From Fibrobacter sp. (GTDB taxonomy: Bacteria; Fibrobacterota; Fibrobacteria; Fibrobacterales; Fibrobacteraceae): a stretch of 46,776 bases of DNA. Both the position numbers and the translations under genes were made by a program. The stretch's first letter is position 1; each line of letters starts with the position of its first letter. The notes below the pieces were generated by a model. The model had not been told where the DNA came from. It saw only the letters and a list, made by a program, of their open reading frames with translations, and searched no databases. The stretch is from contig NZ_JAFZKX010000028.1 in assembly GCF_017551775.1 (NCBI RefSeq), forward strand, positions 1 to 46,776, written 5' to 3'. Shown piece after piece: positions 41,037-46,776 of the stretch.

Positions 41037-42422
41037 CTATTTCAGTTTCTTCAGTTCATGCCGCAGCATGAGCACACCGATGAGGGCCGCGCCGACATCG
41101 GAAATGGGCTGCGCGAGGAACACTCCCTTCAGTTCGAAGAAGCGCGGCAAAATGAGCAGGAAGGGAATCAGCAAGATGACTTGGCGGCAGGCGTTCAGGA
41201 ACATGGACCTGAGCGCCTTTCCTGTACCCTGGAAGAAACTCCCGGAGACGAGCCCGAGCGGAATCATGAAGAATCCCGCGCCAAAAAGCCTCATGGCCCA
41301 GGCGGCTATTTCCTGCAACTTCAGGTCGTTCGGGGCGAAGGGGGCGACAAAGACTTCCGCCTTCCACATCAGGATGGCCCATGCCACGAGCATCACGCTG
41401 AACGCATAGATGAAGGTGAACTTCAGCGTCTCCTTGACGCGGTTGTTGAGGCGCGCGCCGTAGTTGTACCCGATAATCGGCTGCGTACCGTGGACAAACC
41501 CGAGCAGCGGCAGCAATATGAACGAGGCGATGCTGTTCACGATTCCGAACGCGGAAATCGCCATGTCGCCGCCCGACAGGTGCTCCGTCGCGGCGAGGCT
41601 GATGTTTCCGTAGGTGGTGAGGCTCCAGGCGAGAATCGCGTTCATGAGGCTGTTGCAGACCTGCATGATTGAAGGCGGGATGCCGAGGATGATAATCTTC
41701 CTCACGTAGACAAAGCGCAGCTTCATGTGGCGCCAGCGGATGCGGATGGGCGTATCCTTCTTCACGAAGAACTGCGTGATGAGCGCCGATGATACCAGCT
41801 GCGAACTGATGGTGGCCCAGGCGGCCCCTTCGATGCCCCAGTGGAACTGCCGGATGAACAGCCAGTCGAGGAAAATGTTCGTGACGGCGCCGATGACTTC
41901 GCGGAACATGGCCGTCTTGGGGTGGCCCATGCTGCGGATGAAGTGGTTCATGCCCGGGGCGACCGTCTGGAAGATGGCGCCACAAAGCAAAATGCGCATG
42001 TAGCTCGATGCCACGGGGAGCGTCTGCTCGCTTGCCCCGAAAAGCCGCAGCAGCGGTTCCATGAAAATCTCGCCGAGCGTGAACGTGGTGAGCGCCATCA
42101 GGATGAGCAACGAGAAGGAGTTGTTCAGGATGATGCTTGCCTGGATGTACTTCTTCTGCCCGAGGCGTATGGCGAACAGCGTGTTGCCGCCGACACCCAC
42201 CATCATCGACATCGCCATGATGAACAGCGTGATGGGGAAGCAGAGCGTGATGCCCGCGAGGCCGAGGCTTCCGACGTCCTGGCCCACGAAGAGGCGGTCT
42301 ACGATGTTGTAGAGCGCGTTCACCATCATGCTGATGATGGAGGGGACCGAGAACTGAAGGACCAGTTTCGGGATGCTAGCGGTGCCGAAAGAATTCAGCT
42401 TATTGGAGTAGAATTCACTCAT
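41037..42422 (-). CDS. MATE family efflux transporter
   Basis: This 461-residue protein has about twelve membrane helices and MATE blocks (VLQFSVPSIISMMVNALYNIVDRLFVG, GVGGNTLFAIRLG, LGFVHGTQPIIGYNYGAR). It exports drugs or metabolites in exchange for Na+ or H+. The start is set at 42422, after a TTGGAC-17-TAAATTTG promoter that leaves about 3 nt of leader. An in-frame ATG at 42461 would lie on the -35 box. It is divergent from the TIGR02147 gene with a palindromic operator between. Confidence 0.9.
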   Translation of the reverse strand: MSEFYSNKLNSFGTASIPKLVLQFSVPSIISMMVNALYNIVDRLFVGQDVGSLGLAGITLCFPITLFIMAMSMMVGVGGNTLFAIRLGQKKYIQASIILNNSFSLLILMALTTFTLGEIFMEPLLRLFGASEQTLPVASSYMRILLCGAIFQTVAPGMNHFIRSMGHPKTAMFREVIGAVTNIFLDWLFIRQFHWGIEGAAWATISSQLVSSALITQFFVKKDTPIRIRWRHMKLRFVYVRKIIILGIPPSIMQVCNSLMNAILAWSLTTYGNISLAATEHLSGGDMAISAFGIVNSIASFILLPLLGFVHGTQPIIGYNYGARLNNRVKETLKFTFIYAFSVMLVAWAILMWKAEVFVAPFAPNDLKLQEIAAWAMRLFGAGFFMIPLGLVSGSFFQGTGKALRSMFLNACRQVILLIPFLLILPRFFELKGVFLAQPISDVGAALIGVLMLRHELKKLK

Positions 42423-42461: not shown

Positions 42462-42475
42462 TATGCGCAGCTCAC

Positions 42476-42497
42476 ATATGAAACGCTTGTTTCATAT
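42476..42497. promoter_or_regulatory. 22-bp palindromic operator candidate
   Basis: ATATGAAAC-gctt-GTTTCATAT is a perfect 9-bp inverted repeat. A third half-site GTTTCATA lies at 42559-42566, 6 bp upstream of the TIGR02147 -35 box. The palindrome is 14 bp upstream of the MATE -35 box. Confidence 0.6.
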
Positions 42498-42572
42498 ACG
42501 CAAATTTTGTGTATAAAAATCTAGAAATTAGTGATTTTGGTTAAAATTTATTGATTTTGTTTCATAAAACTA

Positions 42573-42601
42573 TTGACTTTCGCAAAAAACGGTTGTATAT
42601 T
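42573..42601 (+). promoter_or_regulatory. TIGR02147 gene promoter, leaderless
   Basis: TTGACT (42573-42578), 17 nt, TATATT (42596-42601, continuing TG). The ATG codons at 42607 and 42610 lie exactly where transcription should start. Confidence 0.7.
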
Positions 42602-42606
42602 TGAAA

Positions 42607-43440
42607 ATGATGAAACCGATAATCGAATACATAGACTTCCGCCAGTACATGCGCGATTTCTACGAGGAACGCAAGCGCCGCTCCGCTTTCACGTGGCGCG
42701 AGTTCTCGAGGATTGCTGGCTTCTCGTCGTCGGCGTACATGAAGGTCGTGTGCGATGGCGCAAGCAAGCTCAGCAAGATTGGCGTGGAACGCGTAGGCGC
42801 GGCGATGGGCCTTACCGGTTTCGAGATGGATTATTTCAGGGCCATGGTCAAGTTCGGCCAGGCCGATTCCGAGGAGAAGAAAAAGGCAGCCTACGGAGAA
42901 ATGCTCGCGGTCGCAAAGCAGTACAAGATCCGCGTGCTTTCGGGTGACCTGTTCGAGTACTACGATTCCTGGCGCAATCCGGTGCTGCGTGAACTCGCAC
43001 CGCTGATGCCCGGTGCCACTCCGGGGGAAATCGCGAAAAAGATTTACGTGGAAACCTCGGCGCAGGAAGTCCGCGAGTCGCTCGATTTCCTTACCAAGAC
43101 GGGCCTTTTGAAGAAGAAGGAAGACGGTACGCTTGTCCAGTCGGAAACTTCCGTGAAGGGCGCGACCGATGCTACGCGCCTTGCCTTGAGGGGCATGCAC
43201 CGCCAGATGTCGGAACTTGCCACGCCCGCGCTCGACCTCCCGAAGGAAGAACGCAATTTTAGCGGCGTTACGATGGGAGTTTCCCGCGAGAGCTACGCGC
43301 GTATCGTGGATGTGCTCAATGAATGCCGCAAGAAGATTGTCGCCATCGCAGGCGAAGAAAGCAATATCGAACAGGTCTATCGAGTCAATTTGCAACTTTT
43401 TCCGCTCACCAGGAACCTCAGGGAGAACGAAAATGCGTAA
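42607..43440 (+). CDS. TIGR02147 family protein, putative regulator
   Basis: This 277-residue protein belongs to the TIGR02147 (DUF4423-containing) family, expanded in Fibrobacter. It opens IIEYIDFRQYMRDFYEERK, then has an HTH-like segment (FTWREFSRIAGFSSSAYMKVVCDG) and a middle wHTH-like part (VRESLDFLTKTGLLKKKEDG). A DNA-binding regulatory role is inferred from these. Its stop overlaps the start of the next lipoprotein gene by 8 bp. With the lipoproteins it forms a three-gene unit. The TATGAAAC half-sites upstream are candidates for its own binding. Confidence 0.85.
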   Translation: MMKPIIEYIDFRQYMRDFYEERKRRSAFTWREFSRIAGFSSSAYMKVVCDGASKLSKIGVERVGAAMGLTGFEMDYFRAMVKFGQADSEEKKKAAYGEMLAVAKQYKIRVLSGDLFEYYDSWRNPVLRELAPLMPGATPGEIAKKIYVETSAQEVRESLDFLTKTGLLKKKEDGTLVQSETSVKGATDATRLALRGMHRQMSELATPALDLPKEERNFSGVTMGVSRESYARIVDVLNECRKKIVAIAGEESNIEQVYRVNLQLFPLTRNLRENENA

Positions 43441-44233
43441 CATCAGGTTGTTTATCATTGCTCTGTTTGGTATCGCGTCCCTGTGGGTGGGCTGTTCTGA
43501 TTCGCAGAAGATTACGGGAACCTCCGAAGAAGAAAACGAGCTCATCGCCCGTCAGAATTCTTCGAGTTCGTTGATGCCCGAATCGATATCCTCCAGTTCT
43601 TCCGAGAAGGTCGAACCGGCATCGAGTTCTGACGATGAATTGCCTCCTTCTATAGATTTTGAAGGCCGCTCGAGCAACAGTACGACGAAATCCGTTGATT
43701 CTTCGAGCAGCAGTGGAAATGGGAATGGCAGTGGCCCGGTGGAAGTTACCGCCAATAATCGGAATACTTTTGGTTACTATATCGAGATGTTCGCTCTTGA
43801 CATTGTGCAGTTCGATAGTACCGTCAAGGCGTCGGCCATTGTCGATATGGAAAAACCCGGATTGTACCGGATTACGAAGGATGAAGTCGACTCCCTGAAA
43901 TTGAATTTCCCGACTGCCGTCAGAAGGTACAGCGATATTATCACTGCCGTCAAGAATGACAGCGCTGAATGCGGCCTATACCTCTACAACGTGCAGGGCG
44001 ATGTGCGTACGGCCGGGCTTATCTTGAACGGCATTACGTCCGATACGGTGGTGGTTCTTGATATCGTATCGGAAAATTGCGAGCCTACGAATGAAAAGAT
44101 GTTCGGCTTCCTCTTCACCTACTGTGGCGAGATGAACAGTGATCCCGAACTTGTGCGGATTACTGTCAACAGCGAAATTCCTGGGAACAAATGCCCTGAC
44201 GGGCGAATCAAAGAATGGATAAAAGAAAATTAA
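43433..44233 (+). CDS. Ser-rich lipoprotein
   Basis: This 266-residue protein begins inside the end of the TIGR02147 gene (ATGCGTAA overlap), with GGGAG as ribosome site. The signal peptide ends LWVGC (Cys21, with an unusual Trp before). Residues about 40-100 are a Ser-rich linker with four poly-Ser clusters. The folded part (about 105-266) has three Cys (CGLYLY, ENCEP, FTYCGE) and a fourth near the end (NKCPD), perhaps two disulfides. No family is recognised. Surface exposure is likely. Confidence 0.82.
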   Translation: MRNIRLFIIALFGIASLWVGCSDSQKITGTSEEENELIARQNSSSSLMPESISSSSSEKVEPASSSDDELPPSIDFEGRSSNSTTKSVDSSSSSGNGNGSGPVEVTANNRNTFGYYIEMFALDIVQFDSTVKASAIVDMEKPGLYRITKDEVDSLKLNFPTAVRRYSDIITAVKNDSAECGLYLYNVQGDVRTAGLILNGITSDTVVVLDIVSENCEPTNEKMFGFLFTYCGEMNSDPELVRITVNSEIPGNKCPDGRIKEWIKEN

Positions 44234-44271
44234 CTGGCGAACGCCAAGAAGATTTTTAAAGGAGAAATATC

Positions 44272-45432
44272 ATGAAACGATTTACCAGTATGGCTTGCGG
44301 AATTGCCGCAGCCTCTATCCTCTCGTGTGCCTTGACGGCATGCGATAACGAAAGCCCGAGTGCCCCGGTCAGTGGCGACGAAAAGTCTTCCGCTGTCGAA
44401 AGTTCCGACGCCGGTGAGGTTTCCAGTTCCAGTTCGGGAGTGGTTGCTAGATGCGATGCGCTCTCGACCGAATGCGGATATTCCGAAGAGGAACTCTGCA
44501 AGATGGGCGTCCCGGGGTACTGCGGCAACGAACTTGTCGAACTCAGTTCCTCTTCCGGAGATGGGCCGACTTCCAGCTCGGGGGCGGTTATCAGATGCGA
44601 TGCTTTCATGCCCGAATGCGGATACAGCGAAGAAGAACTCTGTGGAATGGGCTATTACGAGTACTGCGCTTCCAGCTCCAGTACGTTGGAAACATGCATT
44701 ATCATGGATGAGTTGTGTCCGTCTTGCAACGGTAGTGGTGAAAAGTTGACTTGCCCGGTGACGAACGAACCCTGCAACCGGTGCAGTATGACCGGCGAGC
44801 GCACCAAGGATTGCAAGACCGGAATGGCCTATGTGTGTAAGGATGGAATCTGGAGGAAAGCGCAGGAAGATTCCATTTGCGTGCACATTACCGATGTCGA
44901 TGGGATGACTGCCAACGGGAATTGCAATAGCGATACTGACTTGGAATCGGTTATCGACTGCGCGACCGGCAGGGAATTCAGGTGCATCATGAATTACTGG
45001 ACTGCAATTGACCTCTGCCCGCCGGGCAGCAAATGCAACGAAGGCAATATCGTTGAAGAAGCGACGGACGTGAGCGCGATGAACCGTGGTGGCCCCGCTG
45101 TGGCCCCGAGTGTCGTGAAGGTAAGAAACGCCAACGGAAGCATTACCTTCCGCGACGATGGCATCCTTGTTGACGAACGTTGCACCTTCAATGGCCTGAG
45201 GGCGGAGCTTTCGGGCGACACCCTGCTTGCCACCATCCTGTATCCGGGATGCACGGCGACCGGCGGGTTCATGGGCGTCATCACGTTCACTCTCAGTGAA
45301 GATTTTGTCGGCGTCAAATACATCAAGTACGATGATAAGGAGAACGTCCAAAAAATTCGCGAAGCGGAAGGACTGTTGCCCTGCGGGAACAATGCTTCTT
45401 GCACATCGTGCGGAAAAGGAATGTCCTGCTAA
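44272..45432 (+). CDS. Cys-rich lipoprotein with internal repeats
   Basis: This 386-residue protein has AAAGGAG before the ATG and a lipobox LTAC (Cys24). The mature part has 29 cysteines. Two 25-residue repeats (60-84 and 108-132, RCDA..xECGYSEEELCxMG..xYC) are separated by poly-Ser linkers. A segment with CPSCNGSG (149-156) and CNRCSMTG (168-175) resembles the paired CxxCxGxG motifs of the DnaJ zinc domain. It may bind metal or form disulfides. The tail (370-386) adds four more Cys. It follows the previous lipoprotein by 38 bp. The function is unknown. Confidence 0.82.
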   Translation: MKRFTSMACGIAAASILSCALTACDNESPSAPVSGDEKSSAVESSDAGEVSSSSSGVVARCDALSTECGYSEEELCKMGVPGYCGNELVELSSSSGDGPTSSSGAVIRCDAFMPECGYSEEELCGMGYYEYCASSSSTLETCIIMDELCPSCNGSGEKLTCPVTNEPCNRCSMTGERTKDCKTGMAYVCKDGIWRKAQEDSICVHITDVDGMTANGNCNSDTDLESVIDCATGREFRCIMNYWTAIDLCPPGSKCNEGNIVEEATDVSAMNRGGPAVAPSVVKVRNANGSITFRDDGILVDERCTFNGLRAELSGDTLLATILYPGCTATGGFMGVITFTLSEDFVGVKYIKYDDKENVQKIREAEGLLPCGNNASCTSCGKGMSC

Positions 45433-45518: not shown

Positions 45519-46776
45519 TTATCGGACCTCGAAACGCACCTGGCGGGAATTGACGCCTTGGCGCACCCTGACGAGGTACTTGCCTGCGGAAAGCGAGCTC
45601 ATGTCGATCAGGTGGTTGCCGGAGGAAAGTTGTTCCTCTTTTTTCAGGCGCGTGTTGCCGAGCAGGTCGAAGACTTCGATTTTCGTAACGCCGCTTCCCG
45701 TAGATTCAAGCGCGAGTTTGCCGTTGGCGAAGGAAATGTTGAAATGGTCGTTGGCTTTTTGGAACGGAATGGCGATGACGGAAGAGGAACTTCCGGGACC
45801 CACGTCGTGGCAGGCCTTGTAGGTCGCGGGGTTTGTGGAGAGGTATTCCTTCACCATATTGCCGGAGGTCGTGTACTGGAGGGAGGTCTTGCTGGAACTG
45901 CCCTGGAATGCGGCCGTGCCTTCGCTGATCATGGAAGCCGACCAGTTCGCCCAGGAGAGCTTGTGCTTGTTGATGTATTCCTGCCAGCTTTGGTTGCGGC
46001 CCTGGTCCGGGGTTCCGCCGCCGTCGGCTTTGCCCGTGCCCCATTCGGAGACGAACACGGAGAGGCCCGCGTTCATGGCCTTTTCGCCCTTGGTGCCTTC
46101 GCAGGCGTCGTTGTTGCCGTCGCCCCAGCCGTAAGAACCGCTCCAGCAGTGGCTATTGGCGTAGTAGTGCAGCGTGTAGGCGGTATTTTTCTTGGGGTCG
46201 TTCACTTCGTTGCCGATGGCGTCGGAGGGGTTCTGGTCCCACGAGGGGTTGCCCACGAGCACCAAGTTGTCGGAATACTGGCGGATAACCTCGATGACCT
46301 GGTTCGCGTAGTTCTTTACGTCGCTCCAGGGAATCTGCTGCGGCTCGTTATACACCTCGAAAATCACGTTGTCGTACTGGCCGTAGGCTTCGGCCATTTC
46401 CTTGAAGAAGTTCTTGGCGGCGTCGGTCTGCTTGTGGGCTTCGTGCGAATGCCAGTCGATAATCACGTAGATGTCGTTCTTGATGGCGGCCTCGACGACG
46501 GTCTTCACCAGGTTCTTCTGGGTGTTGGGATCGCTCGCGTAACCCTTATAGCCGCCTTGCCAGTCCTCGTTGCCGGTAGCCATGGCCGCGCGCACAATCT
46601 GGATTTTCATGTCGTTCACCATGGTGGTGATGCCTTCTTCGCTCCAGAACTCGATGGCCTGGGGCATAAGGCTCCAGTAGAGGCTCATGCCACGCACCTG
46701 AACTTCGGCGCCGTCCTTGACGCCTTCGCAGGAACCGTAAATCTGGCCTTTACCCTGCGAGGTCTTGCCGGTCATC
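45519..46776 (-). CDS. Secreted GH5 endoglucanase, N-terminus cut by window end
   Basis: At least 418 residues are present. The gene runs off the right edge, so the signal peptide and true start are missing. The GH5 domain has the motif IYVIIDWHSHEA, acid/base Glu in FEVYNEPQQI (codon 46344-46346) and nucleophile Glu in VFVSEWGTG (codon 46044-46046). This fits subfamily 2-type endo-beta-1,4-glucanases. A short Ser linker precedes a C-terminal sorting-type domain ending GKYLVRVRQGV. It should act outside the cell on cellulose or beta-glucan. Confidence 0.88.
   Translation of the reverse strand, partial: MTGKTSQGKGQIYGSCEGVKDGAEVQVRGMSLYWSLMPQAIEFWSEEGITTMVNDMKIQIVRAAMATGNEDWQGGYKGYASDPNTQKNLVKTVVEAAIKNDIYVIIDWHSHEAHKQTDAAKNFFKEMAEAYGQYDNVIFEVYNEPQQIPWSDVKNYANQVIEVIRQYSDNLVLVGNPSWDQNPSDAIGNEVNDPKKNTAYTLHYYANSHCWSGSYGWGDGNNDACEGTKGEKAMNAGLSVFVSEWGTGKADGGGTPDQGRNQSWQEYINKHKLSWANWSASMISEGTAAFQGSSSKTSLQYTTSGNMVKEYLSTNPATYKACHDVGPGSSSSVIAIPFQKANDHFNISFANGKLALESTGSGVTKIEVFDLLGNTRLKKEEQLSSGNHLIDMSSLSAGKYLVRVRQGVNSRQVRFEVR

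Follow-up and report, generated by a model that had tools for sequence, protein, structure and literature searches.

Putative private switches for surface lipoproteins: a multi-copy family of TIGR02147 regulator-lipoprotein operons in Fibrobacter

The DNA analysed here, a contig of 46,776 nucleotides from Fibrobacter sp., a fibre degrader of the gut (NZ_JAFZKX010000028.1, assembly GCF_017551775.1; hereafter the window), carries a gene for a putative TIGR02147 regulator followed by two lipoprotein genes (Table 1). Comparison with related loci suggests that this is probably one copy of a multi-copy operon in which a private switch, a regulator predicted to bind its own operator, is coupled to a surface lipoprotein. 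A preliminary description had treated the unit as a module with an operator of its own. The host genome of 3.2 Mb contains 31 TIGR02147 genes, the window module being one of these, and the idea of a lone, unique system had to be given up. The finding itself is real and larger than first noted: at the level of sequence, regulator-lipoprotein operons extend through the phylum, and regulator and operator covary within Fibrobacter.

The palindrome and the additional half-site named in the preliminary description are both present upstream of the regulator. In the window the palindrome was the sole match even when three mismatches were allowed, and it did not occur in 100 dinucleotide shuffles. The half-site GTTTCATA is present in four copies (0.81 expected), three of them inside the intergenic region between the regulator and a divergent MATE-family gene. 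The proximal half-site follows the like-oriented distal half-site at a distance of 70 bp and precedes the -35 hexamer by 7 bp; a 17 bp spacer separates this hexamer from the -10 element. As the -10 element lies directly ahead of the ATG codons at 42607 and 42610, a leaderless transcript is predicted, in agreement with the preliminary description. Two other genomes contain an orthologous locus, with regulator identities of 95% and 90%. Presence of the palindrome at these loci had been chosen beforehand as a test, and in both independent orthologues (L060 and L061) the arms ATGAAAC and GTTTCAT are unchanged, with the spacer ATTT replacing GCTT. Both also retain GTTTCATAAAACTATTGAC. A further record (L089) gave the same values as the second orthologue and probably represents the same genome, and the orthologues are counted as two.

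The loci compared comprised the 31 paralogues of the host genome with their flanks, named Fibrobacter records and other genomes of the genus. Removal of duplicates identical in protein and upstream region left 187 distinct regulators, among which near-copies may persist through species overlap between the collections. Read by eye, the upstream regions of the 31 paralogues follow one recurring plan with letters differing by locus. The search for palindromes ahead of other TIGR02147 genes, proposed earlier as a check, revealed the operator design of the window in about half of the collected regulators: a palindrome ATnnnAC-N4/5-GTnnnAT near -132 (in the window about 123 bp upstream) and a single half-site around -50, immediately ahead of the -35 box. 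A palindrome score of at least 11 was reached by 73 of 187 regulators (shuffled mean 1.0) and a score of at least 10 by 105 of 187 (5.8 in shuffles). Among the 82 regulators with both sites assigned, a distance of 70-73 bp separates the like-oriented distal and proximal half-sites in 76; the spacer within the palindrome measures 5 in 62 regulators and 4 in 18. The inner half-site bases vary among paralogues and agree within each locus. Consistent with this, the proximal 7-mer equals one distal arm in 50 of these 82 cases (13.3 by permutation), and for the 31 paralogues of the host genome the observed mean of the distal/proximal self-match was reached by only 5 of 100,000 permutations. Of the 187 regulators, 156 have a -10-like hexamer, which ends 6-10 nt ahead of the start codon in 133 of the 156, and just 20 have a Shine-Dalgarno-like stretch. 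The short distance between -10 element and start codon together with the rarity of Shine-Dalgarno sequences suggests that the leaderless start is general.

The regulator was modelled with a predicted local distance difference test score of 84.6 and a predicted template modelling score of 0.66, with helices of a helix-turn-helix (HTH) at residues 29-35 and 43-48. In this model, residue 41 would be positioned just ahead of the recognition helix and residue 46 inside it. Half-sites were assigned without protein information in 140 of the 187 regulators; redundancy filtering left 106 regulator-site pairs for the pairwise analysis and 120 leaves for a tree from which the HTH columns were excluded. 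Residue 41 covaries with base 3 of the half-site. Among the 106 pairs it ranked at the top of 251 columns (partial r 0.69, next column 0.39), and on the tree both changed on the same branch nine times (0.87 expected, p = 1.3e-9, top of 241 columns). In the proximal site, P41 occurs with A in 73 of 79 cases and S or C at position 41 always with T (37 of 37). For the distal right arm, the corresponding values are 64 of 69 and 30 of 35. An operator at the gene's own promoter thus contains a base that covaries with a predicted recognition residue, and this covariation is the strongest evidence that the regulator binds its own operator. Along with the identical arms in the orthologues, it backs the autoregulation through the palindrome proposed in the preliminary description.

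Several observations weigh against such a general scheme. No palindrome at score 10 was detected ahead of 82 of the 187 regulators, and 11 of the 31 paralogues in the host genome reach a score of at least 10. Similarly, the self-match was not seen in many individual paralogues, chiefly divergent ones, and the divergent paralogues may use another operator design. The privacy of the operators is imperfect. The core ATGAAAC-N4..6-GTTTCAT occurs at three sites in the genome, namely in the window, at paralogue C39, whose GTTTCAT half-site is the same as that of the window, and at C60, and a GTATCAT half-site is common to several paralogues. At C60:4775-4793 (L261:1501-1519), a perfect ATGAAAC-N5-GTTTCAT palindrome without an adjacent TIGR02147 gene is flanked on one side by a divergent gene whose product is possibly an outer-membrane protein and on the other by a small membrane open reading frame (ORF). 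No proximal half-site was seen in the flank examined, and the palindrome is possibly a target in trans or a chance occurrence. Residue 46 was the best pairwise column for base 4 (r 0.64, next 0.32; 106 pairs), but this signal was lost on the tree, where two shared changes compare with 0.65 expected (p = 0.13). A second contact is not claimed, and of the two residue-base pairs we regard residue 41 with base 3 alone as solid. Finally, the resemblance of residues 8-90 to Xre-like proteins (Z up to 8.8) and of residues 108-183 to winged helices (Z about 7) perhaps reflects a common arrangement only. Foldseek found nothing under E 0.001 for the regulator model, matches of the sequence profile to solved structures were non-significant (best E 0.05), and Pfam HTH models matched weakly in a few relatives.

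The coupling to lipoproteins is widespread. A detected lipoprotein starts near the regulator stop codon in 163 of 187 regulators, and several of the remaining 24 are misses of the search pattern (L022 and L021 by eye), which combined a lipobox pattern with a hydropathy test. The recurrent lipoprotein neighbours sought in the earlier check therefore exist, and the neighbours of relatives are not unrelated. In the window, the regulator gene and lipoprotein 1 overlap by 8 nt (ATG 43433, TAA 43438-43440). This overlap, the Ser-rich lipoprotein (14% Ser) and the lipoprotein with 29 Cys (the count starts at the lipobox Cys, and the complete ORF has 31) are all present as reported before. By pattern and hydropathy, both lipoproteins have a signal peptide with a lipobox and its Cys, which is residue 21 in lipoprotein 1, and neither matched a Pfam or NCBIfam family over the cut-off. 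In the C-terminal domain of lipoprotein 1, C180, C216, C231 and C254 are invariant in a 23-row alignment. Residues 110-266 were well modelled; for this domain VIA-align gave a single hit, with Z 2.6, and Foldseek none below E 0.001. A fold-based assignment was dropped, the lack of a match not being evidence for a new fold.

The partner lipoproteins share a motif close to the lipid anchor. Its strict form, G-T-x-E-E-x-N within the first 31 residues past the Cys, is present in 118 of 163 lipoproteins compared with 205 of 8150 shuffled N-termini. A profile of 19 motif-containing N-termini matched 20 places in the genome at E <1e-8, all adjoining TIGR02147 genes, 19 of the 20 being training rows and one independent. 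Weaker matches reaching the motif comprised five TIGR02147-linked lipoproteins and two unlinked ones (C18:30718 and C67:16668). These two orphans have no TIGR02147 neighbour and no operator visible by eye; the one on C18 (L322:3174-5213) contains two similar repeated segments, and the one on C67 corresponds to L323 (C67:16757). In other genera and families, 17 of 30 loci from eight genomes have a detected lipoprotein behind the regulator, and 15 of the 17 carry, by eye, a related form of the motif such as GSETTN or GTATDTEN. The domains of lipoproteins in sister operons include FISUMP, carboxypeptidase-regulatory-like, LamG and pectate-lyase-like domains. In a scan of 13 distinct partner lipoproteins, lipoprotein 1 of the window among them, FISUMP was found in 5.

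The family assignment made earlier is borne out by a full-length match of the window regulator to TIGR02147 (287.8 bits, cut-off 50); DUF4423 matched with 99.5 bits (cut-off 30). TIGR02147 members were found in all 61 searched genomes of the genus, mostly in more than 10 copies, in 156 of 167 Fibrobacterota genomes (38 of 40 genera) and in none of 14 control genomes. Genera g21 and g31 are without any member in the 10 genomes sampled, which suggests that the entire system was lost there. At C12:2172-18594 (L043), five TIGR02147-lipoprotein units are arranged in tandem over about 17 kb, with two further TIGR02147 genes beyond this run on the same contig. Several of the C12 units have operators of the GGAACAC/GTGTTCT type in place of the GTnnnAT form.

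Operator architecture, within-locus match, the residue 41-base 3 pair, gene coupling and the lipoprotein motif are thus supported by comparison. From these we infer DNA binding, autoregulation and surface exposure as follows. The TIGR02147 protein would be a cytoplasmic transcription factor that binds DNA by its N-terminal HTH. At its own leaderless promoter it would occupy the distal palindrome and the single half-site beside the -35 box, thereby setting expression of itself and of the lipoproteins translated just behind. Paralogues would have drifted to different half-sites, regulator and operator changing together, which suggests that the chief target of most regulators is the operon they belong to. 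Once carried to the envelope, the lipoproteins would presumably be docked or sorted by the conserved motif next to their lipid anchor, and the variable outer domain may face the surroundings. As to the sign of regulation, the near-consensus promoter makes us lean slightly towards repression; activation from a site beside the -35 box, by analogy to AraC or lambda CI, follows close behind. In promoters of the latter type, a half-site or dimer adjoins the -35 box and a second site lies at a fixed helical distance. The layout in the window would be compatible with looping or cooperative contact, the likeness drawn here being one of arrangement. Xre/lambda-repressor-like regulators, represented by HigA and DdrO among the fold matches, likewise have an N-terminal HTH and a palindromic operator upstream of their own gene. 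In contrast, the window regulator adds a predicted winged-helix-like domain and a C-terminal part, and its operator consists of a distal palindrome and a half-site at -50 rather than a site over the promoter.

Could the palindrome be the site of another, global regulator of many lipoprotein operons, while the TIGR02147 protein senses, for example, the state of the envelope? Its location in a divergent intergenic region and the copy of the core away from TIGR02147 genes would fit. However, a global regulator needs no different site for each paralogue, the site changes along with residue 41 of the recognition helix predicted for the adjacent gene, and the design is also found in loci without a MATE gene, all of which makes this explanation improbable. 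A cooperation of regulator, lipoproteins and MATE transporter, the linked export of the preliminary description, is very unlikely. The transporter gene diverges from the shared intergenic region in the window and in both orthologous genomes, and the -35 element of its candidate promoter TTGGAC-17-TAAATTTG, assigned by eye, is about 16 bp from the palindrome. Yet tblastn found no MATE match in any other fetched locus (80 of these requested with 3.5 kb flanks, most having them), and operator and lipoproteins occur elsewhere without it. The exporter, adjacent in the window and two orthologous loci only, was rejected as part of the system and is a syntenic neighbour only.

Pheromone peptides originating from lipoprotein signal sequences act on PrgX-type receptors. 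By analogy, regulator and lipoprotein might form a signalling pair in which a piece of the lipoprotein, either the cleaved signal peptide or the anchor-proximal tail, feeds back on the regulator. In line with this idea, in 69 of 93 locus pairs (regulators 80-97.5% identical; pairs not independent) conservation of the signal peptide exceeds that of the mature remainder, the anchor-proximal motif is nearly restricted to TIGR02147-linked lipoproteins in the genome, and PrgX, an HTH regulator of the RRNPP receptors, is among the weak fold matches. The PrgX match was non-significant, however (Foldseek E 0.19, TM about 0.2), and the second domain of the regulator models as a winged helix instead of an array of tetratricopeptide repeats. 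Moreover, fast divergence of the Ser-rich linkers and surface domains alone could explain the contrast in conservation. Peptide feedback therefore seems unlikely, and a regulator acting on its own operator is the explanation we prefer.

The genes of the locus evolve at different rates. In comparison with the two orthologues, the ratio of nonsynonymous to synonymous substitutions (dN/dS) was 0.09-0.13 for the regulator and 0.08-0.12 for the MATE gene, as against 0.40-0.51 and 0.26-0.40 for lipoproteins 1 and 2, respectively. Both lipoproteins are fast-evolving and contain hypervariable stretches. In several locus pairs, identity falls sharply past the motif, for instance to about 40% beside a 97% identical regulator. 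Between the orthologues, 740 bp (L060:101-840, L061:3078-3816) are 99.3% identical beside DNA of 80-90% identity. The breakpoint lies inside lipoprotein 2, and 99.3% identity beyond it compared with 90.6% on the regulator side suggests recombination. The highly identical stretch extends into a GH5 cellulase gene, which in the window (45519-46775) is a fragment with a C-terminal sorting domain of the type IX secretion system type, convergent with the lipoprotein operon; its synteny is kept in the orthologous loci.

Table 1. Features of the regulator-lipoprotein locus and its neighbour in the window.
Feature	Position	Strand	Remark
Distal operator palindrome ATATGAAAC-GCTT-GTTTCATAT (arms ATGAAAC/GTTTCAT)	42476-42497	none	From sequence; arms conserved in orthologues
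Proximal operator half-site GTTTCATA	42559-42566 (GTTTCAT core 42559-42565)	+	From sequence
-35 hexamer TTGACT	42573-42578	+	TTG at fixed gap from half-site in most relatives
-10 element TATATTTG, TATATT(TG)	42596-42603 (hexamer 42596-42601)	+	Few nt before start codon
TIGR02147/DUF4423 regulator, 276 amino acids	42610-43440	+	TAA stop 43438-43440; in-frame ATG also at 42607
Ser41 codon of regulator	42730-42732	+	Covaries with half-site base 3
Val46 codon, predicted recognition helix	42745-42747	+	Pairwise correlation with half-site base 4, none on tree
Lipoprotein 1, 266 amino acids	43433-44233	+	Signal peptide, lipobox Cys21, motif, Ser-rich linker, C-terminal domain
Anchor-proximal motif GTSEEEN in lipoprotein 1	43517-43537	+	Sequence motif
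Lipoprotein 2, Cys- and Ser-rich, hypervariable	44272-45432	+	Own Shine-Dalgarno AAGGAG
MATE-family transporter, divergent neighbour, judged outside the system	41037-42422 from its ATG	-	Family match and synteny

Taken together, the data allow a tentative wider picture. Fibrobacterota cells might carry tens of semi-private, self-switching surface lipoproteins, each regulator having diverged to its own operator. Regulator, signal peptide and anchor motif would form a fixed head, behind which recombination would exchange and diversify the outer domains. The regulators could even be self-sustaining switches, individual cells displaying different subsets. If so, the operons would serve envelope diversification against phage, protists or competing strains, or equip the cell for plant-wall surfaces of different kinds.

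No function has been assigned to TIGR02147/DUF4423, a large family present in nearly every sampled Fibrobacterota genome. The TIGR02147 (Fsuc_second) and DUF4423 entries are confined to a paralogous family or a domain of unknown function, and operator, partner lipoprotein and motif lie outside these family descriptions in the tools used. DUF4423 appears in a single table line in PMC12546842. Literature searches for TIGR02147, Fsuc_second and FISUMP by name, and for a Fibrobacter lipoprotein-linked autoregulatory transcription factor, found none, most subscription journals lying outside these searches. The comparison presented here gives TIGR02147 proteins a testable role as operon-specific transcription factors, and it supplies them with an operator, a recurrent partner and one residue that is a candidate determinant of specificity. 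With dozens of natural regulator-operator pairs in each genome, the family is also a data set on insulation among paralogous regulators. Lipoproteins of the TIGR02145/Fib_succ_major (FISUMP) type are encoded behind a TIGR02147 regulator in several sister operons, whereas the two lipoproteins of the window are without such a match over the cut-off. FISUMP domains have been suggested to be cohesin-like parts of cellulose attachment (PMC4704652). Control of adhesion to rumen fibre may thus run through TIGR02147 switches.

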